Shown here: piece after piece, positions 47,129 to 57,742 of the stretch
How positions within the stretch are numbered: position 1 is the stretch's first letter
How the letters are laid out: every line of letters begins with the position of its first letter
Assembly (NCBI RefSeq): GCF_000215955.2
Contig: NZ_AFNV02000009.1
Span: forward strand, 62,001 to 126,000
Source of the DNA: Salinisphaera shabanensis E1L3A
Lineage (GTDB): Bacteria > Pseudomonadota > Gammaproteobacteria > Nevskiales > Salinisphaeraceae
Direction: 5' to 3'
DNA length: 64,000 nt
Notes under the pieces: generated by a model
Databases searched by the model: none
The model's input: the letters and a program-made list of their open reading frames with translations, nothing else
Told to the model about the DNA's origin: nothing
Program-made: the position numbers and the translations under genes

Positions 47129-47158
47129 TTGACAGCTCGCACGGCGCGTGCTTATCTA
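47129..47158 (+). promoter_or_regulatory. Candidate sigma-70 promoter of the phasin gene
   Basis: TTGACA at 47129-47134 is a perfect -35 element. TATCTA at 47153-47158, 18 bases later, is a weaker -10. The -35 abuts the 16-bp palindrome, so a protein bound there would be placed to block or help polymerase. Confidence 0.5.
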
Positions 47159-47191
47159 CGTTTTCCTTTTAACGCAAGGCGAATCCAGGTC

Positions 47192-48103
47192 ATGGCGAAA
47201 TCCGATAACCGCATCAGCAAATTGCGCAAAGATGTAGAGAAGCTGCGCAAGAACTACACCGGTGCATTCACGTCGGCCAATCGCGCGGTCTACGACGGAA
47301 TCGAACAACTCGCCGAGCACGAACTCGCGGCTTTGAAGACCCACTACGAACAGGCAATCGCAAGCCTCAAGACCCTGCGCAAGGGGGGCGCGCCGCGCGA
47401 GCTTGCCGTCGCTCAGCTGCAGCTGATTCAGGACACTATTGACCGGATCATGAATAACGCGCGCGAGAGCATGGCGATCCTCGACAGCACGCGCTCGAAG
47501 ATCAACGAAGAAATTCGCCGCAACCTGGAAGGCAGCGAACAGCTTACCCAGGACGCTGCGGTGCAAACCAAGGCCGAAGCCAAGACGCAGGCAACCCAGG
47601 CCAAAAAGCGCAAGACGCAGGCCAAGCGCAAGACCAACCAGACCGCGAGCGCCGCCAAGGCCAAGGCCAGCACGACCGCCTCGAAGGCTGAGTCCGCGGC
47701 CAGCGATGCCGCAGCCAAGGCTGAAAGTGCAGCGCCGGCCAAGACGAAAAGCACCGCCAAGAAACGTACCGCGTCGTCTAAGTCCAGCAGCGGTAAATCC
47801 GGCACCGGCGCGACGAAAGCCAAATCCACAACGAGCAAGCGCGCCGCGTCAGCAAAGTCATCGACTGCGAAAAAGACCACCGCAACCCGCAAAAGCGGTG
47901 GCACGACGGCAAAGACCGGCACGAAGAAATCGACGACGACTCGCAAACGCAGCAGCGGATCGACTGCAGCCAAACGGGGCAGCGCTTCGAGTTCTAGTTC
48001 TTCGAATTCGAATACGGCAGCGTCGAGCACGCCGAACAGTTCGGCCTCTTCGTCGGACTCCAATAACGATAGCAGCAGCAGTAACAACTCGACCTCCAGC
48101 TGA
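47192..48103 (+). CDS. PhaF-like phasin with histone H1-like and Ser/Asn-rich tail
   Basis: A 303-residue protein of two parts. Residues 1-120 are a helical phasin domain (ISKLRKDVEKLRKNYTGAFTSANRAVYDGIEQLAEHELAAL) that would coat polyhydroxyalkanoate granules. The rest is low complexity: Lys/Ala/Thr/Ser repeats as in AlgP/histone H1 tails (to about 265), then about 40 residues almost wholly Ser, Asn and Asp. Pseudomonas PhaF has the same phasin plus H1-like plan and ties granules to the nucleoid. ATG at 47192 is chosen by domain start. No phaC synthase is in the window. Confidence 0.8.
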   Translation: MAKSDNRISKLRKDVEKLRKNYTGAFTSANRAVYDGIEQLAEHELAALKTHYEQAIASLKTLRKGGAPRELAVAQLQLIQDTIDRIMNNARESMAILDSTRSKINEEIRRNLEGSEQLTQDAAVQTKAEAKTQATQAKKRKTQAKRKTNQTASAAKAKASTTASKAESAASDAAAKAESAAPAKTKSTAKKRTASSKSSSGKSGTGATKAKSTTSKRAASAKSSTAKKTTATRKSGGTTAKTGTKKSTTTRKRSSGSTAAKRGSASSSSSSNSNTAASSTPNSSASSSDSNNDSSSSNNSTSS

Positions 48104-48154: not shown

Positions 48155-48236
48155 ATTGGCGCTGCGCTATTGGCCTTGATCGTCGGGCCCCGTAGCGGGT
48201 AGCCGTGATACCGCTTCTATCTCCGGTTCGTTGCCA

Positions 48237-49169
48237 ATGCTCGATCTTGCCGACAGCACACAGCTATTGCGCCTGCTGGCCGAGCCAACACGGCTGCGGC
48301 TGTTGCTGTTGCTTATCGACCAGCCCATGACGGTGGCCGAACTCACGAATGTGACCCAGCTCACTCAGAGCCGGGTATCGAGCCACCTGGCGCGTCTACG
48401 CGAAGCCGAACTGGTCCAGGACCGCGCCGTGGCGAACGCGCGTTTCTACAGCGTCGACGTCAAACGCTGGCGTCACGACATGCGCCCGTTGTGGGGCGCG
48501 CTGCTCGATACGCTGGACGATTCGGTTATCCACCGCGATCGCGAACACGCCGCGGCGATCGTGCGCCAGCGCAGCGCGCGCAGCAGCTGGGTGGAATCGG
48601 TCGCGGGTAGCATGGAGCGCCAGTATTCGCCTGGGCGCACCTGGGAGGCCATGAGCCGGGCACTTATCGAACTGCTCGACCTTGGCGACGTGCTCGATAT
48701 CGCCTCGGGCGATGGCGTGCTGGCAGAGCTGCTGTGCCGCCGTGCCCGGCACGTGACCTGCGTCGATCGCAGTGCCGCCGTAATCGACGCCGCACGTACG
48801 CGCCTGGGCAAGCAGGCCAACGTCGGCTTTCGAATCGGCGATATGCACGCCTTGCCGTTCGACGATGCGAGCTTCGATCAGGCGTTTCTTTTGCATGCGC
48901 TCAGCTATAGCGAGACGCCGCAGACGGCGTTGGTCGAGGCCGCGCGGATACTACGCCCCGGCGGACGGCTCACGCTCGCCACGATCGGGCGCCACGAGCA
49001 TGCCTCGACGGTGGCCGCCTATGACCATGTCAATCTCGGATTCGAGGTGGCACAGCTCAGCGATTGGCTCGAAAAAGCCGGCCTGCACGTACATGACTGT
49101 GCCGAGCGCGCCCGCGAGCCGCAACCACCCTATTTCCGAGTGATCACCGCCAGTGCGAGCAAGCCATGA
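48237..49169 (+). CDS. ArsR-type helix-turn-helix and SAM-methyltransferase fusion
   Basis: A 310-residue fusion. Residues 1-90 form an ArsR-family winged helix (LLAEPTRLRLLLLLIDQPMTVAELTNVTQLTQSRVSSHLARLREAELV), and residues 140-300 a class I methyltransferase with VLDIASGDGVLAELL, CVDRSAAVIDAAR and ILRPGGRLTLATI. The usual ArsR metal Cys motif is absent from the recognition helix (LTQSRVSSH). Such fusions are common near methionine-cycle genes, but none are adjacent here. ATG at 48237 is preferred over TTG at 48231. Confidence 0.85.
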   Translation: MLDLADSTQLLRLLAEPTRLRLLLLLIDQPMTVAELTNVTQLTQSRVSSHLARLREAELVQDRAVANARFYSVDVKRWRHDMRPLWGALLDTLDDSVIHRDREHAAAIVRQRSARSSWVESVAGSMERQYSPGRTWEAMSRALIELLDLGDVLDIASGDGVLAELLCRRARHVTCVDRSAAVIDAARTRLGKQANVGFRIGDMHALPFDDASFDQAFLLHALSYSETPQTALVEAARILRPGGRLTLATIGRHEHASTVAAYDHVNLGFEVAQLSDWLEKAGLHVHDCAERAREPQPPYFRVITASASKP

Positions 49170-49960: not shown

Positions 49961-50467
49961 GTGCGCTATCTGCTCGGGCTGATCATCGGCGCTGCCACCC
50001 TGTGGCTCCTATTGTCGGGCGTTTACAAGCCCATCGTGCTTGGCCTGGGCGGCTTTTCGGTGCTGTTCTGTGCCTATGTATGCCATCGCATGGGCATCGT
50101 CGACCGCGAGAGCGTGCCGCTGCATCTGCTTGCCCGGGTGCCGCTGTATGCGCTCTGGCTGGGCGGCGAAATCGCCAAATCCAACTGGGATGTCGCCAAG
50201 CGCATCGTGTTGCCCGGGCGTCGTATCTCGCCGACGATCGTGCGCCTGCGCGCCCATCAGTCGAGCGAGCTCGGCCAGGCGGTATTCGCCAACTCGATCA
50301 CTCTGACGCCCGGCACGGTGACCGTGGCGCTGCGAAGCGGTGACGCCATCGTGCATGCAATAACCGCAGACAACGCCACGGATATGGAAGGCGGCGACAT
50401 GGACCAGCGTGTACGCCGGCTCGAACGCCCCTTTGGCGCGCCCGCTCGCCGCGAGGCCAGCCAATGA
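49961..50467 (+). CDS. mrpE: Mrp-type cation/proton antiporter subunit E
   Basis: A 168-residue subunit with two or three spans and a soluble C-terminal part. GEIAKSNWDVAKRIVLP, FANSITLTPGTVTV and the AITAD region are MrpE hallmarks. GTG at 49961 is the start, with GGGGA upstream. It opens a ten-gene cluster and overlaps the mrpF start. Confidence 0.88.
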   Translation: MRYLLGLIIGAATLWLLLSGVYKPIVLGLGGFSVLFCAYVCHRMGIVDRESVPLHLLARVPLYALWLGGEIAKSNWDVAKRIVLPGRRISPTIVRLRAHQSSELGQAVFANSITLTPGTVTVALRSGDAIVHAITADNATDMEGGDMDQRVRRLERPFGAPARREASQ

Positions 50468-50754
50468 TGTTTCTCGTTGCCATTATCGCCGTTGTGGTCA
50501 CCATGCTGCTGATCCTGGTGCGCGCCCTGCTGGGGCCAACGGTCTACGACCGCATCCTGGCCATCAATCTGTTCGGCACGAAGACCGTGCTGTTCGTGGC
50601 TGTGTTGGGTTTTCTAAACGGCCGCCCGGAATTCCTCGATCTCGGCCTGATCTACGCGCTGATCAATTTCATCGGCACGGTGACGGTGCTCAAGTTCATG
50701 CAGTACGGCGATCTCGGCTGGGAAGCCGCCAGCAAGGAAAAGCCCGATGTATAA
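50464..50754 (+). CDS. mrpF: Mrp antiporter subunit F
   Basis: A 96-residue subunit with three spans, matching MrpF by length and by the RALLGPTVYDRILAINLFGTKTV and DLGLIYALINFIGTVTVLKFM segments. It overlaps the mrpE stop. Confidence 0.9.
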   Translation: MMFLVAIIAVVVTMLLILVRALLGPTVYDRILAINLFGTKTVLFVAVLGFLNGRPEFLDLGLIYALINFIGTVTVLKFMQYGDLGWEAASKEKPDV

Positions 50755-50796
50755 GGCTGGCCGTCATCCGTATCGCACCGTTCGACGGGTTCTGCG

Positions 50797-51111
50797 ATGA
50801 ATGCTCTGATCGATACCGCGAGCTGGATTCTGCTGGCCGGCGGCGCGCTGTTGAGCGTGATCGGCGGTATCGGCATGCTGCGCATGCCCGATTTCTATAC
50901 CCGTATGCATGCCGCATCGGTCACCGATACCGGCGGCATGATCCTGATGCTTGCGGGCCTGATGCTGCAGGCGGGGCTCACGCTCGTAACCGCGAAGCTG
51001 GTATTCGTGATGCTTTTTCTGCTGATCACGAGCCCGACCGCGACCCATGCCCTGGCCCGCGCCGCGCTGGAAGACGGGATCGAGCCGCAAGTCGATCACG
51101 ATAAGCGTTGA
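50797..51111 (+). CDS. mrpG: Mrp antiporter subunit G
   Basis: A 104-residue subunit with three spans. SVIGGIGMLRMPDFYTRMHAASVTDTGG and FLLITSPTATHALARAA are diagnostic of MrpG. It begins 42 bases after mrpF. Confidence 0.9.
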   Translation: MNALIDTASWILLAGGALLSVIGGIGMLRMPDFYTRMHAASVTDTGGMILMLAGLMLQAGLTLVTAKLVFVMLFLLITSPTATHALARAALEDGIEPQVDHDKR

Positions 51112-51281
51112 TGCACGCCCCGACCGACAACGGCCGGGCGTTTGTCGACGCCCGCTACCCCGGCCTGCGGATTGCGATCCGTGCACGGCGCGGGGGGGTG
51201 GTGTAGCATGAGGCCGTCGCCACGCCAGCACCCCGTGACGAAGCCTTCGTCGCCGCGGTTCACCGACAACAGGATTGCCAA
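51112..51281 (+). other. 170-base gap inside the mrp cluster
   Basis: This is the only long gap in the cluster. It holds no recognisable gene; an internal promoter or attenuator is possible but I see no clear motif, only a G-rich run near 51191. Confidence 0.4.
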
Positions 51282-51848
51282 GTGACCACGGATATCGCGC
51301 TCAACATTGTTCTGCTGAGCTTCATGGCGATCGTCGGCCTGGCGATCGCACGGCTGCGCAACCTGTTCCCTGTGGCCATGCTCACCGGCCTGTACAGCCT
51401 GCTCTCGGCCAGCCTGTTCACGCTGCTCGACGCCGTCGATGTCGCGCTTACCGAAGCCGCCGTCGGCGCCGGCGTGACCACCGTATTGTTTCTGGCCACC
51501 TTCGGGCTTACTCGGGCTCGTGAAAAGCCCGTGCCCCGGTCGCGCACGCTGATCGGACTTTGCGTAACGGTCCTGACCGGCGCCGTTCTGATCTACGCGA
51601 GCCTGGATATGCCGCACTTCGGCGCCGCCGATACACCGGTGCAACAGCATCCGCTACGGGACCATTACCTGAAAACGGTCAGCGATGAGATCGACGTACC
51701 CAATACCGTCACGGCAGTACTCGGCAGCTATCGTGGCTACGATACGCTCGGCGAGGTGGTGGTGGTATTCACGGCCGGCATCGGCGTACTCATGTTGCTG
51801 GGCGTGGCTTGGCGGCGTCCGAACAAGTCTGCGGAGCGCAATCGCTGA
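51282..51848 (+). CDS. MrpA C-terminal-like subunit (DUF4040/MbhD plus MbhE-like)
   Basis: A 188-residue subunit with five or six spans. LNIVLLSFMAIVGLAIARLRNLFPVAMLTGLYSLLSASLFTLLDAVDVALTEAAVGAGVTTVLF is the DUF4040/MbhD core, followed by an MbhE-like end (LGSYRGYDTLGEVVVVFTAGIGVLMLLG). In canonical mrpA these parts form the C-terminus of one long subunit; here they are a free protein, as in archaeal Mbh. GTG start at 51282, six bases after AGGAT. Confidence 0.85.
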   Translation: MTTDIALNIVLLSFMAIVGLAIARLRNLFPVAMLTGLYSLLSASLFTLLDAVDVALTEAAVGAGVTTVLFLATFGLTRAREKPVPRSRTLIGLCVTVLTGAVLIYASLDMPHFGAADTPVQQHPLRDHYLKTVSDEIDVPNTVTAVLGSYRGYDTLGEVVVVFTAGIGVLMLLGVAWRRPNKSAERNR

Positions 51849-52300
51849 TGCGTGAACATACCGTCTTGCGGGTGGTCACCAAGCTGTTGATCGCCCCGAT
51901 CATTCTCTTTGCGCTGTATGTCCAGTTCCATGGCGACTACAGTCCCGGCGGCGGCTTTCAGGCCGGCGTGGTGTTCGCCGCCGCGATTATTCTGTATGCC
52001 TTGATTTTCGGTCTGGCCGAGGCACGCCGGGCGGTATCGCCCAACCTGCTGCGCATCACCGGCGCGCTCGGGGCGCTGATATTCGCCGGCACCGGCGTCT
52101 ATGCCATGCTTCGGGGCGGCAACTTTCTCGACTACGACTATCTCGCCCACGATGCGATCCACGGCCAGCATTACGGGCTGCTGCTGGTCGAGTTCGGCGT
52201 CGGGCTGACCGTGGTGTCGGTCATCACATCGATCTTTTACGTCTTTGCCGGCCGCGGCCGCCGCAACGACGACGAACAACCGCCCGGGGACGCGCGATGA
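51848..52300 (+). CDS. mrpB: Mrp antiporter subunit B
   Basis: A 150-residue subunit with four spans. VVTKLLIAPIILFALYVQFHGDYSPGGGFQAGVVFAAA and GLTVVSVITSIFYVF match MrpB. Its ATG shares one base with the preceding stop. Confidence 0.9.
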   Translation: MREHTVLRVVTKLLIAPIILFALYVQFHGDYSPGGGFQAGVVFAAAIILYALIFGLAEARRAVSPNLLRITGALGALIFAGTGVYAMLRGGNFLDYDYLAHDAIHGQHYGLLLVEFGVGLTVVSVITSIFYVFAGRGRRNDDEQPPGDAR

Positions 52301-52821
52301 GTCTGGCGTCGATCGCCGATAACTTCTTCGGCCTGTTCAATTACTGGGTGGTCATCGTGCTGATGATGATCGGTTTCTACACCGTCATCTCGCACGACAA
52401 CCTGGTCAAGAAGCTCATCGGTCTGAACCTGTTCCAGACCGCGGTGTTCGTGTTCTATATCAGCATGGGCAAGATCAGCGGTTCGACCGCGCCCATCCTC
52501 ATGTCCGGCGAGGGCAGCGAAGACGCGCTCTATGCCCATCCGCTGCCCCATGTGCTGATCCTGACCGCGATCGTGGTCGGGGTATCCACCACCGCGCTGG
52601 GCCTGGCGCTGGTGGTGCGTATCAACGAAGCCTACGGCAGTATCGAGGAAGACGACGTGCTCGAGGCCGACTTCGAGACCCAGGAAGAAGAAACCGAGGA
52701 AGAAGCCGAGCGTACGGCCCGTGCCGAGGCACGCCAGGAGCGCGAAAGCGCACAGCAGGACCACGACGACGGCCGTGAAGAAGAAGACGAAGCAGACGAC
52801 GATCGGGAGACTCGCTCGTGA
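52297..52821 (+). CDS. mrpC: Mrp antiporter subunit C with acidic C-terminal extension
   Basis: A 174-residue NuoK-like subunit. The three-span core (residues 8-112) is normal, with IGFYTVISHDNLVKKLIGLNLFQTAVFVFYI and PLPHVLILTAIVVGVSTTALGLALVVRINE. About 60 extra residues follow, rich in Glu, Asp and Arg, predicted helical and cytosolic. MrpC/NuoK proteins are usually about 110 residues, so the tail is unusual. Overlaps both neighbours by ATGA. Confidence 0.88.
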   Translation: MSLASIADNFFGLFNYWVVIVLMMIGFYTVISHDNLVKKLIGLNLFQTAVFVFYISMGKISGSTAPILMSGEGSEDALYAHPLPHVLILTAIVVGVSTTALGLALVVRINEAYGSIEEDDVLEADFETQEEETEEEAERTARAEARQERESAQQDHDDGREEEDEADDDRETRS

Positions 52822-54308
52822 TCGAAGCCTTTTTCGCCCAGATGCCCGCCCTGGTCATCGTTCTGCCGCTGCTGGCTGCGCCCCTGTGCGTGCTGCTGCA
52901 CCGTGGCGGGCCCTCGTGGTTCGTCTATCTGCTCACCACCTGGGCCTGTTTCGGTCTGGCGTTTCTGCTGTTCGTTCAGGTCAAGATCGGTGGGCCGATC
53001 AGTTACGCCATGGGCGGCTGGTCGCCGCCGTTCGGCATCGAGCTGCGCCTGGACGCGCTCAATACCGTGGTGCTGCTGCTGGTTACCGGCATCGCCGCGA
53101 TCAGCAGCGTCTATGCCAAGGCCAGCGTCGCCGCCGAGATTGCCAGCGAGCGCGCCTATCTGTTCTATGCCGCGCTGCTGCTGTGTTTCTGTGGCCTGGC
53201 CGGCATCACGGTCACCGGCGATGCATTCAACCTGTTCGTATTCCTTGAGATTTCGTCGCTGTCCTCGTATGCGCTGATCGCGATGGGCTCGAAGCGTCGG
53301 GCGCTGCTTTCGGCGTTTCAATACCTGATCATGGGCACCATCGGCGGCACCTTTCTGCTGATTGGTATCGGTTTTCTCTACATGATGACCGGCAGCCTCA
53401 ACATGGCCGATATCGCCAGCCGTCTGCCCGCGGTTGCCGATACGCGAACCGTCGAAGCAGGGCTCGCCTTCATTGTGGTTGGCACCAGTCTCAAATTCGC
53501 GCTATTCCCGGTGCACGTCTGGCTGCCCAACGCCTATACCTATGCGCCCTCGAGCGTGAGCGCGTTCATCGCAGCCACCGCCACGAAGGTCGCGGTCTAT
53601 GCGCTGATGCGTTTCCTGTTCACCGTATTCGGGGCCGCCTATGCCTTCGACCGGCTGCCGCTGGGCGAGGTGCTGTTGGTCTTGTCTGTCGCCGCGATGC
53701 TGTCGGGCTCCATGGCCGCGATCTTTCAGACCGACGTCAAGCGTCTGCTGGCGTGGTCGAGCATCGCCCAGATCGGTTACATCGTGATGGGCTTCGCGCT
53801 GGCCAGCAGCGCCGGCGTATCGGCATCGGTGGTACACATGGTCAACCATGGCCTGATCAAGGGTGCCCTGTTCATGGCCGTGGGGGCGATGTTCTGGCGC
53901 CTGCGTACGATCTCGCTCAACGATATCGCCGGGCTGGGTCGCCAGATGCCGATCACCTCGGCCGCATTCGTCGTCGCCGGGTTGTCGTTGATCGGCGTGC
54001 CGGCGACCGGCGGCTTCATCAGCAAGTGGGTGCTACTGGAAGCCGTGATCGCCCCCGGCCACTACTGGCTTGCGGCGGCCATACTCGTGAGCTCACTCAT
54101 GGCACTGATCTATATCGGACGTGTCGTGGAGGTACTGTATTTCCGTGAGCGACCGGAAGGACGGCCCGACGTAGGCGAAGCCCCCGTGCTCATGCTGGTC
54201 GCGACCTGGACTCTCGTACTCGCGAATATCGCGGTTGGCCTGTATGCGACACCGCTGATCGCGGCCGCTCAGCGGGCAGCCAGTGCGGTGCTGGGAGACG
54301 GCTCATGA
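52818..54308 (+). CDS. mrpD: Mrp antiporter subunit D (first NuoL/M/N-type subunit)
   Basis: A 496-residue antiporter-like subunit with about 14 spans. FNLFVFLEISSLSSYALIAMGSKRRALLSAFQYLIMGTIGGTFLLIG contains the conserved Glu of TM5, and LKFALFPVHVWLPNAYTYAPSSVSAFIAATATKVAVYAL the Lys and His-bearing helix of proton channels. LLAWSSIAQIGYI is also typical. This is the best match to canonical MrpD. Confidence 0.9.
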   Translation: MIEAFFAQMPALVIVLPLLAAPLCVLLHRGGPSWFVYLLTTWACFGLAFLLFVQVKIGGPISYAMGGWSPPFGIELRLDALNTVVLLLVTGIAAISSVYAKASVAAEIASERAYLFYAALLLCFCGLAGITVTGDAFNLFVFLEISSLSSYALIAMGSKRRALLSAFQYLIMGTIGGTFLLIGIGFLYMMTGSLNMADIASRLPAVADTRTVEAGLAFIVVGTSLKFALFPVHVWLPNAYTYAPSSVSAFIAATATKVAVYALMRFLFTVFGAAYAFDRLPLGEVLLVLSVAAMLSGSMAAIFQTDVKRLLAWSSIAQIGYIVMGFALASSAGVSASVVHMVNHGLIKGALFMAVGAMFWRLRTISLNDIAGLGRQMPITSAAFVVAGLSLIGVPATGGFISKWVLLEAVIAPGHYWLAAAILVSSLMALIYIGRVVEVLYFRERPEGRPDVGEAPVLMLVATWTLVLANIAVGLYATPLIAAAQRAASAVLGDGS

Positions 54309-55762
54309 GTGCGCATTGGCTAGGCTGGCTGGTGGCGTTCCCAGCGCTCATGAGCTTGCTGGTGGCTGCGTGCGGCCGCTGGCCGAATCTGCGGGAAAGT
54401 ATCAGCGTGGCGACGGCGGTGGCCTTGTTCGCAGGGATCGCGCTCTTCGTCGAGCCGGTCACCGCGGGCGCGCGCCCCTCCCTGACCCTGTTCGAGGTGC
54501 TGCCCGGTGTGGGGCTGACATTCACACTTGAGCCACTGGGGCTGCTTTTTGCCCTGGTTGCATCCGGGTTGTGGTCAGTGACCACGATCTATGCCGCCGG
54601 CTACATGCGCGGCAATGAAGAACATGCCCAGACCCGCTTCTTCGTGTGCTTCGCGCTGGCCATATCTGCGGCCATCGGGATTGCGTTCTCCGGCAACCTT
54701 CTGACGCTGTTCATCTTTTACGAGATGCTCACGCTGTCGACCTATCCGCTGGTCACCCACCACGGTGATGTCGAATCGCGTAACGGCGGCCGGGTGTATC
54801 TCGGCATCCTGTTGACCACGTCGATCGGCTTCTTTCTGCCCGCGATCATCATCACCTACCTGATCACCGGCAGCATCACCTTCGACGAGGCCGGGTTGTT
54901 CGGCGAGGCGGGCCTCAGCGTGCTGGGCGCCGGCGCACTCTATGCGCTGTTTCTGTACGGCACCGGCAAAGCCGCGCTCATGCCGTTTCATCGCTGGCTG
55001 CCGGCCGCGATGGTCGCGCCCACGCCGGTATCGGCACTGCTGCACGCGGTGGCCGTGGTCAAGGCCGGTGTATTCATCGTACTCAAGCTCTCGGTGTACG
55101 TATTCGGCGTTCAGTTCCTGGCCGATACCGGGGCTTCCGAATTGATGATGTGGGTGGCCGCCTTCACCGTTCTCGGCGCGTCACTGATCGCGATGACACG
55201 GGATAACCTCAAGGCGCGTCTGGCCTATTCCACGGTCAGCCAGCTTTCGTATATCGTGCTCGGCGCGACCATGGCCTCGAGCTTCGGCATTCTGGGCGGC
55301 GGCATGCATATCGCCATGCACGCCTTTGCCAAGATCACGCTGTTCTTCTGCGCGGGCGCGATCTATACCGCAACCCACCGTAAATATGTCAGCGAGCTGG
55401 ACGGGCTCGGCTATGCGATGCCGATCACGTTCACGGCGTTTTTCATCGCATCGGTATCGCTGATCGGTATTCCGCCCATGGGCGGTATCTGGAGCAAGTG
55501 GTATCTCATGGAAGGCGCGGCCGATTCGGGCCATACCGCTATCATCATGGTGCTGGCGCTGAGTTCGCTGCTCAATATCGTCTATCTGCTGGAAATTCCA
55601 ACGCGGGCGTTCTTTCACAACCCGCGCCCGGATACACCCCGGAACTGGCATGAAGCACCCTGGGCCTGCGTGATTCCGCTATCGATCACGGCGACCGGTT
55701 GCATCGTCTGGTTCTTCTATCCGTTGCCGTTTCTCAAACTGCTTGCGCCGTGGGCGCCGTAG
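54305..55762 (+). CDS. Second NuoL/M/N-type antiporter subunit (MrpD/MrpA-like)
   Basis: A 485-residue membrane protein with about 14 spans. IFYEMLTLSTYPLVTHH carries the TM5 Glu; YGTGKAALMPFHRWLPAAMVAPTPVSALLHAVAVVKAG the conserved Lys and His. It differs from the first by its longer N-terminal sequence and looks closer to NuoL/MrpA. Its ATG overlaps the mrpD stop. Confidence 0.88.
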   Translation: MSAHWLGWLVAFPALMSLLVAACGRWPNLRESISVATAVALFAGIALFVEPVTAGARPSLTLFEVLPGVGLTFTLEPLGLLFALVASGLWSVTTIYAAGYMRGNEEHAQTRFFVCFALAISAAIGIAFSGNLLTLFIFYEMLTLSTYPLVTHHGDVESRNGGRVYLGILLTTSIGFFLPAIIITYLITGSITFDEAGLFGEAGLSVLGAGALYALFLYGTGKAALMPFHRWLPAAMVAPTPVSALLHAVAVVKAGVFIVLKLSVYVFGVQFLADTGASELMMWVAAFTVLGASLIAMTRDNLKARLAYSTVSQLSYIVLGATMASSFGILGGGMHIAMHAFAKITLFFCAGAIYTATHRKYVSELDGLGYAMPITFTAFFIASVSLIGIPPMGGIWSKWYLMEGAADSGHTAIIMVLALSSLLNIVYLLEIPTRAFFHNPRPDTPRNWHEAPWACVIPLSITATGCIVWFFYPLPFLKLLAPWAP

Positions 55763-55782
55763 CAATACGAGGTGAATTCGCC

Positions 55783-56046
55783 ATGTTGATCGAACGCAAC
55801 CCGCAGCAGTACCGCCGGCCAAGCACTCCTGCACGTACCCACTGGGCGCGCGCGCTCTATGTCGTATGCGCGCTCACCCTCGTACCCAGCCTGTTCATTC
55901 ATCCGCACGCAGAGTTCGGCTTTGCAGAAATGCCGGCATTCCACGCCGTGCTGGCGTTCGTGACCGGCGTAGTGCTGGTACTGGCTGCCATCCTGCTGCG
56001 CCGCCTGATCATGCGCGGCGAAGACTACTACGAGCACCGCACCTGA
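55783..56046 (+). CDS. Small two-span membrane protein in the mrp cluster
   Basis: An 87-residue protein with two hydrophobic segments (about residues 24-42 and 53-72) and basic ends; it finishes LLRRLIMRGEDYYEHRT. GAGGTG eight bases before the ATG at 55783 supports translation. It sits between two large antiporter subunits and is flanked tightly, so it is probably an accessory or assembly subunit. I do not recognise the family. Confidence 0.65.
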   Translation: MLIERNPQQYRRPSTPARTHWARALYVVCALTLVPSLFIHPHAEFGFAEMPAFHAVLAFVTGVVLVLAAILLRRLIMRGEDYYEHRT

Positions 56047-56047
56047 C

Positions 56048-57742
56048 ATGCTCCCTGCCTGGTTGAATAACCCGGGGATGCTGCTGATTATCGCCGGCAG
56101 CGTGATTCCCCTACTGCCCTACCGGCTGCGTATGGTCGTACTGCTGGGCGCGCCTGCCGCGAGCCTGCTCTGGCTCTGGCAGATTCCGCTGGGCACGACC
56201 ACCACGATGGAACTGCTCGACTACACGCTCACGCCGCTGCGCGTCGACGGTCTCGCCTTCACCTTCGGCGTGATCTTCAACGTGGCCGCCTTCCTGTCCG
56301 GCGTGTACATGTGGCATACCCACAGCCGCCTGGAGCCGGCGGCCGCGCTGATCTATGCCGGCTCGGCGCTGGGCGCCGTACTCGCCGGCGATCTGATCAC
56401 GCTGTTCATGTTCTGGGAAGTCACCGCGATTGCCTCGGCGCTGTTGCTGGTCATCCGCGGACTGCGCGACGCCATGATCGTGGCGCGGCGGTACCTACTG
56501 GTACAGATCGGTTCCGGCATGTTCCTGATGGGCGGCGCGGCGATCTATATTCATGCCACCGGCGATCTGGCCTTCGGTCATCTCGGTCTGGACGCACCGG
56601 GCAGCTGGCTGATCCTGCTCGCGTTCGGCATCAAGGCGGCGTTCCCGCTGTTGCATAACTGGCTGCAGGACGCCTACCCGTCCGCAAGTGCAACCGGCAC
56701 GGTGGTGCTGTCGGCATTCACGACCAAAATGGCGATTTATGCGCTGGCGCGCGGCTATGCCGGCACCGATCTGCTGATTCCCATCGGCGCGGTGATGACG
56801 ATCTTTCCGATTGTCTATGCCATGCTCGCCAACGACCTGCGCCGGGTCTTGTCCTACAGCCTGAACGTGCAACTCGGCTTCATGGTCGTGGCGGTGGGCA
56901 TTGGCACCGAGCTCGCCATCAATGGCGCTGCCGCCCACGCGGTGACCCATATTCTCTACAAGGCGCTGCTGTTCATGGCCATTGGCGCGGTGCTGCGTCA
57001 GACCGGTCATGTCCGCGCGACCGAACTCGGCGGGCTGGCCCGCCAGATGCCGTGGACCGCGGCGTTTTGTGTGATCGGTGCGGCGTCGATCAGCGCATTC
57101 CCGTTGATGGCCGGGTTCGTGAGCAAGTCGTTGATTCTGGCAGCCGTCGCGCACGAACACTGGGCTGGCACATGGATTACGCTCACCGCCGCGTCGGCTG
57201 GGGCGCTGATGTACGTGGGTATCAAGATCCCGTATTTCGCCTTCTTCGCCCCCAACGACCAGATTGAATGCGACGAGGCGCCGCGCAACATGCAGATCGC
57301 CATGGGCCTGACTGCGGTTGCCTGCATCGCGCTCGGGCTGATGCCCTCGTTGCTGTATTCGATCCTGCCGTACCCGGTGGACTACAACCCGTATACCGCC
57401 AGTCATATCGTCAGCCAGCTACAGCTGCTGGCATTCTCGGCGCTGGTGTTCTGGCTGGCATGGCGGGCCGGGCTTTATCCGCTGCCCAAGCGTGCCGTGC
57501 ATCTGGATACCGACTGGGTCTATCGCATGCTGCTGCCACGCTTCGGCTATGTCGCCGAGCGCGTGTATCACGCAGTGGTCACCAAATTCGGCAGCGGCGT
57601 GAACAGCGTTGCTGCCCGCGGCATGGGACGACTACGCCTGCGTTATGACGCGCGCGGAGTCATGTCGCGGACATGGAGTACCGGCTGGATGGCGCTCTGG
57701 GTCGCGTTGTTACTGGTCGTCTATCTCGTGCTCTACTACTGA
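56048..57742 (+). CDS. Third NuoL/M/N-type antiporter subunit (MrpD-like)
   Basis: A 564-residue membrane protein. MFWEVTAIASALLLVIRG carries the TM5 Glu, and GIKAAFPLLHNWLQDAYPSASATGTVVLSAFTTKMAIYAL the proton-path Lys and His; SLNVQLGFMVVAVGIG is also present. It is longer than the other two at the C-terminus, with an additional span at the end (WMALWVALLLVVYLVLYY). It is the last mrp gene, one base after the small protein stop. Confidence 0.88.
   Translation: MLPAWLNNPGMLLIIAGSVIPLLPYRLRMVVLLGAPAASLLWLWQIPLGTTTTMELLDYTLTPLRVDGLAFTFGVIFNVAAFLSGVYMWHTHSRLEPAAALIYAGSALGAVLAGDLITLFMFWEVTAIASALLLVIRGLRDAMIVARRYLLVQIGSGMFLMGGAAIYIHATGDLAFGHLGLDAPGSWLILLAFGIKAAFPLLHNWLQDAYPSASATGTVVLSAFTTKMAIYALARGYAGTDLLIPIGAVMTIFPIVYAMLANDLRRVLSYSLNVQLGFMVVAVGIGTELAINGAAAHAVTHILYKALLFMAIGAVLRQTGHVRATELGGLARQMPWTAAFCVIGAASISAFPLMAGFVSKSLILAAVAHEHWAGTWITLTAASAGALMYVGIKIPYFAFFAPNDQIECDEAPRNMQIAMGLTAVACIALGLMPSLLYSILPYPVDYNPYTASHIVSQLQLLAFSALVFWLAWRAGLYPLPKRAVHLDTDWVYRMLLPRFGYVAERVYHAVVTKFGSGVNSVAARGMGRLRLRYDARGVMSRTWSTGWMALWVALLLVVYLVLYY

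Follow-up and report, generated by a model that had tools for sequence, protein, structure and literature searches.

A probable group 3 Mrp-type antiporter operon of Salinisphaera shabanensis with a divided MrpA, a third antiporter-like subunit and a small membrane protein

Which membrane complex, if it is a single one, is encoded by ten consecutive genes that combine Mrp-type subunits with three antiporter-like proteins? The question is raised by positions 49961-57742 of a 64-kb stretch of DNA from Salinisphaera shabanensis E1L3A (contig NZ_AFNV02000009.1), called here the window and used for all coordinates, where ten genes with open reading frames follow one another on the + strand (Table 1). 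An earlier note on this DNA had described the order E-F-G-DUF4040-B-C-D, followed by an antiporter subunit, an 87-residue protein and another antiporter subunit, and the gene calls made with Pfam and NCBIfam bear it out; the three Proton_antipo_M proteins (PF00361) are named D1, D2 and D3 in gene order, and the 87-residue protein between D2 and D3 is named s. The ten proteins probably assemble into a single membrane complex, a monovalent cation/proton antiporter of the stand-alone group 3 Mrp type, whose MrpA is split into two genes and to which D3 and s have been added; judged from its sequence, it is best read as a putative antiporter of Na+(K+) against H+ in which as many as three proton paths may operate. 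This reading is based on family matches for every Mrp subunit and on a gene order kept in 80/80 relatives as far as their contigs reach; on the placement of the subunits in a tree, the conserved residues of transmembrane helices (TM) 5, 7 and 12 and a C-terminal arm in the model of D3; and on the co-occurrence of s and D3 (21/398 genomes), together with the observation that no second Mrp was found in the source genome.

According to the excerpts of the literature on which we draw here and below, group 3 Mrp systems are those without mrpA and with mrpD only, at times in several copies (Haja et al. 2021, PMC8415708); the stand-alone operon of Pyrococcus furiosus, mrpEFGBB'CD (PF1147-1153), is described in the same paper, and a Microbacterium cluster ordered mrpFGBCDDAE has been counted as group 3 as well (Ito et al. 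2017, PMC5703873). In the window, homologues of MrpB, C, D, E, F and G are recognized by Pfam and NCBIfam, there is no full-length mrpA but a separate DUF4040 gene and three mrpD-like genes carrying PF00361, the order is irregular and no redox module is linked; these matches place the operon in the published class of stand-alone group 3 Mrp. The DUF4040 gene is distinct from D2 and encodes the free C-terminal unit of MrpA that the earlier note had recognized; it was labelled DUF4040-MbhE there, but the protein is not MbhE alone, MbhD (PF13244, 4.2e-15) and MbhE (PF20501, 3.6e-6) following each other in one chain. In group 1/2 Mrp (Bacillus, Anoxybacillus, Dietzia, Vibrio), which has counterparts for all subunits except D3 and s, the antiporter core and DUF4040 are instead joined in a single MrpA chain and the antiporter subunits are two, whereas in the window the DUF4040 unit lies upstream of B. 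The likeness to archaeal Mbh is correctly seen, since the order is that of MbhA-H, with an MbhD/MbhE-type unit (subunit correspondences from PMC7419157), and that of the stand-alone archaeal operon; the latter shares with the window the order E-F-G-B'-B-C-D, the lack of a full-length mrpA and the lack of a redox module, but has a single MrpD and, going by the published description of its operon, is without D2, s and D3 (PMC8415708). In Mbs, too, there is an extra antiporter subunit, MbsH', which has a lateral helix between TM15 and TM16 (PMC7684303); unlike the window, however, Mbh and Mbs have a redox module, an Asp in the MrpF-type subunit, and one or two antiporter subunits, not three.

As for redox genes, in agreement with the earlier note no hydrogenase, ferredoxin or NADH-dehydrogenase domain occurs in the nine flanking genes scanned, the rest of the genome and the 80 relatives described below not having been searched for ferredoxin or hydrogenase subunits; neither a hydrogenase- or sulfane reductase-type module, as in Mbh/Mbs, nor the quinone and NADH modules of complex I are linked. 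In the whole genome (41 contigs, 97.5% complete) the other PF00361 genes amount to one nuoLMN set, on another contig, and no group 1/2 MrpA was found (no match to TIGR00940 at E 1e-150).

The conservation of the layout was followed in the best 80 of 367 relatives from a scan of GTDB species genomes with D3, which, having been fetched with D3, cannot include operons devoid of it. The order and strand from E to D3 are complete in 60 of the 80 (a locus being scored complete even where tblastn missed s), cut by a contig end in 20 and deviating in none; since the order recurs in loci titled as Alpha-, Beta- and Gammaproteobacteria (and in one metagenome-assembled genome each labelled Myxococcales and Gemmatimonadetes), a chance arrangement is excluded. 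The nearest named relatives are titled Salinisphaera and their D3 is 86-95% identical; one locus titled Endozoicomonas sp. G2_2 (L009), possibly mislabelled, has a D3 identical at 92%, above that of Salinisphaera halophila. D3 exceeds its NCBIfam cut-off in 49/274 genomes drawn evenly from the class and in 21/398 drawn across the phylum, the source genome being included in both. The operon type is thus stable and widespread in Proteobacteria, not peculiar to the source genome, and it extends further: a nine-gene cluster on a plasmid of Haloarcula marina (NZ_CP100409.1) has the same E-F-G-DUF4040-B-C-D1-D2-D3 order, with D1, D2 and D3 in the same clades and Asn in MrpF, but is without s and has Asn for Lys in TM7 of D3. 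The novelty claimed for the order has therefore to be given up, since the order is common to all 80 relatives as far as the contigs reach and present in Haloarcula, and the class is published: the arrangement is ordinary and the class known, while the original observation is correct.

All three antiporter subunits are intact, as had been claimed, each matching PF00361 and each conserved in the relatives (after filtering by length, 53-80 sequences remained for each gene but only 5 for C, owing to the long tail of the window C). Their ancestry was examined in a tree of 65 rows, obtained by a quick method and with support from the Shimodaira-Hasegawa-like approximate likelihood ratio test (SH-aLRT) only; this phylogeny, proposed by the earlier note as a check, separates the three proteins. 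D1 groups with group 1/2 MrpD (SH-aLRT 90), inside the side holding NuoN, MbhH and MbsH (96), and its nearest solved chains are MbsH, the closest, MbhH and MrpD; D2 is sister to MrpA, NuoL and HyfD (90), and its top solved matches are NuoL/ND5 and MrpA chains; D3 forms a clade of its own (100), neither NuoM nor MrpA. This tree, in which branches are long, does not support joining D3 at a deeper level to NuoM, MbsH' or HyfB; nor does the fold decide its ancestry, since VIA-align gives near-equal Z values (~42) for MrpD and NuoL chains. On this reading, D2 and the DUF4040 protein would together correspond to one MrpA, D1 to MrpD, and D3 would be a real addition.

D3 is recognized by PRK12668/NF009310 ('Na(+)/H(+) antiporter subunit D') with 633.5 bits, over a curated cut-off of 564. 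Its predicted structure (predicted local distance difference test, pLDDT, 84.4; predicted template modelling score, pTM, 0.82) comprises a 14-TM-type antiporter core followed by a C-terminal arm in which a 45-residue helix (489-533) stands between TM15 (451-473) and TM16 (545-563); Foldseek matches the model best to MrpA of Bacillus pseudofirmus (TMq 0.80), then to many NuoL and also to MrpD and NuoM-type chains. In MrpA an arm of this composition, TM15-lateral helix-TM16, braces the complex (Steiner and Sazanov, PMC7419157), and across MBH, MBS and complex I the helix HL varies in length with the antiporter subunit count (PMC7684303); from these two observations it may be proposed that D3 clamps the antiporter row from its far end, D2 with its 485 residues probably leaving little room for such an arm.

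The residues expected of proton channels are conserved in the nearest set, the window included: none of the 78 D1, 76 D2 and 81 D3 sequences lacks the TM5 Glu, the TM7 Lys or the TM12 Lys, and in D3 the TM8 Lys is invariant too (81/81, window plus 80 relatives), while in D2 the TM8 Lys is shifted by one alignment column, 73/76 sequences showing Val in the MrpD column, as MrpA does. The idea of three proton paths, put forward in the earlier note, is consistent with these residues of D1, D2 and D3. In the complex as we would picture it, E-F-G-B-DUF4040-C would form the end with the cation path, D1 would adjoin C, D2 would adjoin D1 and D3 would occupy the distal end, its TM15-lateral helix-TM16 arm running back along D2 and D1, like that of NuoL, with s at or near the contact between D2 and D3. 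The proton motive force would then drive H+ inward through the antiporter subunits, and its entry would be coupled, via a charged axis, to the exit of the cation at the DUF4040/C/F end; a third path may raise the driving force or the number of H+ moved for each cation.

The cation path proposed for the Mrp of Anoxybacillus flavithermus involves MrpF Asp35, MrpG His42, MrpD Glu137 and the counterpart of MbhD Glu69, and the mutation of MrpF Asp29 abolished activity (PMC7419157). Most of these sites are kept (counts for F, G, DUF4040 and C referring to the tblastn rows that reach the position): MrpF Asp29 in 74/79, the MrpG His42 counterpart His38 in 80/80, the MrpD Glu137 counterpart D1 Glu144 in 78/78, and the MbhD Glu69 homologue Glu58 of the DUF4040 unit in 83/83, although a linear alignment with group 1/2 MrpA sets the conserved Glu four residues further on, where the window family has Gly. 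MrpC Gln47 is found in 87/87; the sites of MrpC His37 and His40, which bind the cation in A. flavithermus (PMC7419157), correspond here, in an ungapped match to group 1/2 references, to Thr48 and Phe51, and His occurs at neither in 87 relatives, the motif having been taken from the residue numbers in that paper and not from a His-bearing sequence. The lack of both His was dropped as a mark of the family, 4/4 group 1/2 references being without them; likewise MrpG Lys67, which looked family-specific against five group 1/2 references, is matched by Lys or Arg in solved chains.

The small protein s was extracted from 74/80 loci; a profile finds it in 5 of the other 6 and the sixth (L029) is cut before it, so that s is present in 79/79 relatives retaining the D2-D3 gap (in L022 the profile match is spread over two frames). 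Across the phylum sample, a profile search made independently of D3 finds s in the same 21/398 genomes as D3; it adjoins all 23 D3 places, and a 24th s follows a D2 at the end of a short contig. The profile, built from D3-linked loci, would miss a very divergent s; tblastn overlooked s in 5/17 Mrp-type loci of this sample (L129, L130, L134, L136, L137) where the profile found it. Searched with 43 members at E 0.1, s matched no Pfam family with more than two members (best single match 0.0004) and no NCBIfam family with more than one; the 43-member profile against PDB chains, at E up to 10, hit 7 sequences, none of Mrp, Mbh, Mbs or complex I, and the best of them (0.03), a ring subunit of a V-type sodium ATPase, was taken as chance. 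Its model, of low confidence (pLDDT 72, pTM 0.43), has two transmembrane helices (16-38 and 53-76); conservation is seen at a His of the interhelical loop and in a C-terminal tail of the form R....R.EDYY. A fusion of s to D2 in haloarchaea was considered and rejected, the extra length of the Haloarcula D2 giving no s signal. Since the haloarchaeal D3 has no s, s is not required by every D3.

Homologues of D2, s and D3 also occur outside Mrp operons. On two plasmids of nitrogen-fixing bacteria, Ensifer canadensis pT173d and Sinorhizobium meliloti pSymA, they take the position that nuoL would have, between nuoK and nuoM, in an operon for complex I carrying nuoJ, K, M, N and A-F (G too in Ensifer), and no nuoL is present in the stretches read (L107:6472-18306 and L105:6472-19596); the rhizobial s, annotated as 'hypothetical protein' in both records, is homologous to that of the window (E 9e-15), the rhizobial D2 and D3 fall in the same clades as those of the window, and in D3 the TM7 residue is Asn. 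Triad, nuoM and nuoN would give four antiporter-like subunits in this complex I, and subunits of monovalent cation/H+ antiporters have been noted before as the best matches of the pSymA 'NuoL' (PMC3382624). Among plasmid records matched by D3 at E 1e-60, 98/99, the two above being those read in detail, come from Sinorhizobium, Rhizobium, Ensifer, Pararhizobium or Phyllobacterium. In the 398-genome sample, D3 stands at 23 loci: 18 Mrp operons, the window's own included, 3 complex I operons of one genus, 1 bare triad and 1 contig too short to tell; the triad directly follows D1 in 18/23, again counting the window. The bare triad, L126:7751-11316, has flagellar-type genes upstream (named by reading translations), and its genome holds two more copies of D3, in the Mrp operons L129 and L130, the latter beginning at mrpF owing to the contig start.

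Several of the observations weigh against a single, fixed, three-path complex. D2 keeps only the His and the Val of four helix VIII residues reported as specific to MrpA and NuoL (PMC4938563; alignment), and the long helix in the D3 model is of uneven confidence (block means ~50-86). The TM7 Lys of D3 is replaced by Asn in 9/28 wider relatives, so that D3 may not conduct protons everywhere; as the carriers are all five complex I-linked sequences, the haloarchaeal one and three from stand-alone Mrp, the Asn cannot be a mark of complex I only. At MrpF position 35, an Asp in the proposed Na+ path, 78/79 relatives have Asn and one has Ser, against Asp in 5/5 solved MrpF/MbhB/MbsB chains (3 of them in group 1/2 Mrp) and Asp or Glu in 4/4 group 1/2 references; haloarchaeal MrpF has Asn as well. 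By its sequence, the cation path is thus altered at MrpF site 35 across the family, the solved Mrp path is not simply kept, and the transported ion may differ from that of the solved Mrp. Finally, the occurrence of D2-s-D3 in rhizobial complex I and as the orphan L126 copy, together with the haloarchaeal D3 without s, implies that neither D3 nor s need be a fixed part of Mrp.

These points have to be considered together with the alternatives. The possibility that an error of sequencing or assembly has cut an ordinary group 1/2 mrpA in two is virtually negligible: D2 does resemble the N-terminal half of MrpA and the DUF4040 unit the C-terminal one, but in all 60 complete relatives the C-terminal half precedes D2 and is separated from it by B, C and D1, which refutes an artefact, and the same layout is found on the Haloarcula plasmid and at 17 further loci of the evenly drawn genome sample, besides the ten open frames of the window. 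It is very improbable, too, that the genes specify the membrane arm of a respiratory enzyme resembling Mbh or Mbs, with the genes for its redox module at some other genomic site; the subunit set and order of MbhA-H, the closeness of D1 to MbsH among solved chains, the MbhD-type glutamate and the presence of the triad in rhizobial complex I would all suit such an arm, whereas redox genes are missing among the nine neighbours, nuoA-F and nuoI are unmatched around the 17 Mrp-type loci of the sample, and P. furiosus itself has a stand-alone Mrp of the same order (PMC8415708).

More closely tied to the added subunits is the question whether D2-s-D3 is a separate proton-conducting unit, or a complex I partner, merely co-transcribed with a seven-subunit E-F-G-DUF4040-B-C-D1 complex; P. 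furiosus manages with E-F-G-B-B'-C-D alone (PMC8415708), and the triad does stand by itself in L126 and within complex I, but its position after D1 in most D3 loci, the identity of D2 as the missing half of MrpA by the tree and the joint presence of D1-D2-D3 in the haloarchaeal cluster make this unlikely. Rather doubtful is a mainly structural role of D3 and s, as clamp and assembly factor instead of a third proton path: the TM7 Asn of the complex I-linked, haloarchaeal and three stand-alone Mrp D3 proteins and the long lateral-type helix of the model speak for it, the four charged residues invariant in the nearest set against it. A single ten-protein Mrp-type complex is, on balance, still the reading that we prefer.

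Beyond the known class, the distinct lineage of D3, the unnamed partner s, the triad in complex I and MrpF Asn35 appear to make this operon a variant of interest. A tentative and bolder proposal, possible but not probable, regards D2-s-D3 as an antiporter cassette that can be transplanted and that brings a new subunit, s. Joined to a seven-gene archaeal-type Mrp in Proteobacteria, it would have produced an antiporter with three paths, its cation path altered at MrpF (Asp35 to Asn); in rhizobia it would have replaced nuoL, giving a complex I with four antiporter-like subunits. In the literature searched, as represented by excerpts, neither the three-subunit variant with s nor the rhizobial triad is described beyond the remark in PMC3382624, although an earlier description may exist; the available parts of PMC12361115, PMC3314556 and PMC9568556 have nothing on either, and a search combining Salinisphaera, Mrp and antiporter returned no paper. 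For Mrp as for complex I, it is still to be settled how many H+ paths an antiporter-like complex requires and how these are coupled to a cation path; nature supplies variants in which the E-F-G-DUF4040-B-C core is combined with a single antiporter subunit or with three, in which D3 carries or lacks the TM7 lysine, and in which the same triad is part of Mrp or of complex I; if the cassette proposal were true, the natural Lys/Asn variation in TM7 of D3 would separate pumping from clamping roles. The protein s, adjoining D3 in every proteobacterial locus examined in which the gap is present, is a testable candidate for a missing subunit.

Table 1. Genes of the Mrp-type operon of S. shabanensis E1L3A (window coordinates)
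Gene product	Coordinates	Strand	Length (aa)	Family matches	Residues and remarks
MrpE (MbhA-type)	49961..50467	+	168	PF01899 4.6e-27	GTG start
MrpF (MbhB-type)	50464..50754	+	96	PF04066 3.1e-17	Asn35
MrpG (MbhC-type)	50797..51111	+	104	PF03334 8.3e-27; TIGR01300 over cut-off	His38
DUF4040 unit (free MrpA C-terminal unit)	51282..51848	+	188	NF009159 over cut-off	GTG start; Glu58
MrpB	51848..52300	+	150	PF04039 1.3e-29; NF009162 over cut-off	
MrpC (NuoK-like)	52297..52821	+	174	PF00420 5.3e-22; NF005621 over cut-off	Gln47
D1, MrpD/MbhH-type antiporter subunit	52818..54308	+	496	PF00361 7.2e-66	Glu144, Lys226, Lys257, Lys403
D2, MrpA-N/NuoL-type antiporter subunit	54305..55762	+	485	PF00361 8e-54	Glu140, Lys222, Lys398; no DUF4040
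s	55783..56046	+	87	no Pfam/NCBIfam family	two predicted transmembrane helices
D3, third antiporter subunit	56048..57742	+	564	PF00361 1.8e-35	Glu124, Lys196, Lys227, Lys305, Lys360

The genes are closely packed, five of the nine junctions overlapping by 1-4 bases and three being gaps of 1, 20 and 42 bases; the largest gap, between mrpG and the DUF4040 gene (51112-51281), is of 170 bases here and of ~170-180 in the closest relatives (L007-L009), while in Salinisphaera halophila and S. orenii (L010, L011) ~20 bases separate the matched stretches. MrpC (52297-52821) ends in a long acidic, low-complexity C-terminal tail, and only 5 relatives have a protein of about the same length. Among the nine neighbouring genes, the phasin-like one (47129-48103) has a long repetitive C-terminal tail rich in Ala, Lys, Ser and Thr, and the gene at 48231-49169, two genes upstream of mrpE and followed by that of a VTT-domain membrane protein, encodes a fusion of an ArsR-type helix-turn-helix with a methyltransferase domain; the remaining neighbours have domains of fatty-acid oxidation, exonuclease, RNase H, methyltransferase, glyoxalase II-type and LysM/SLT kinds.

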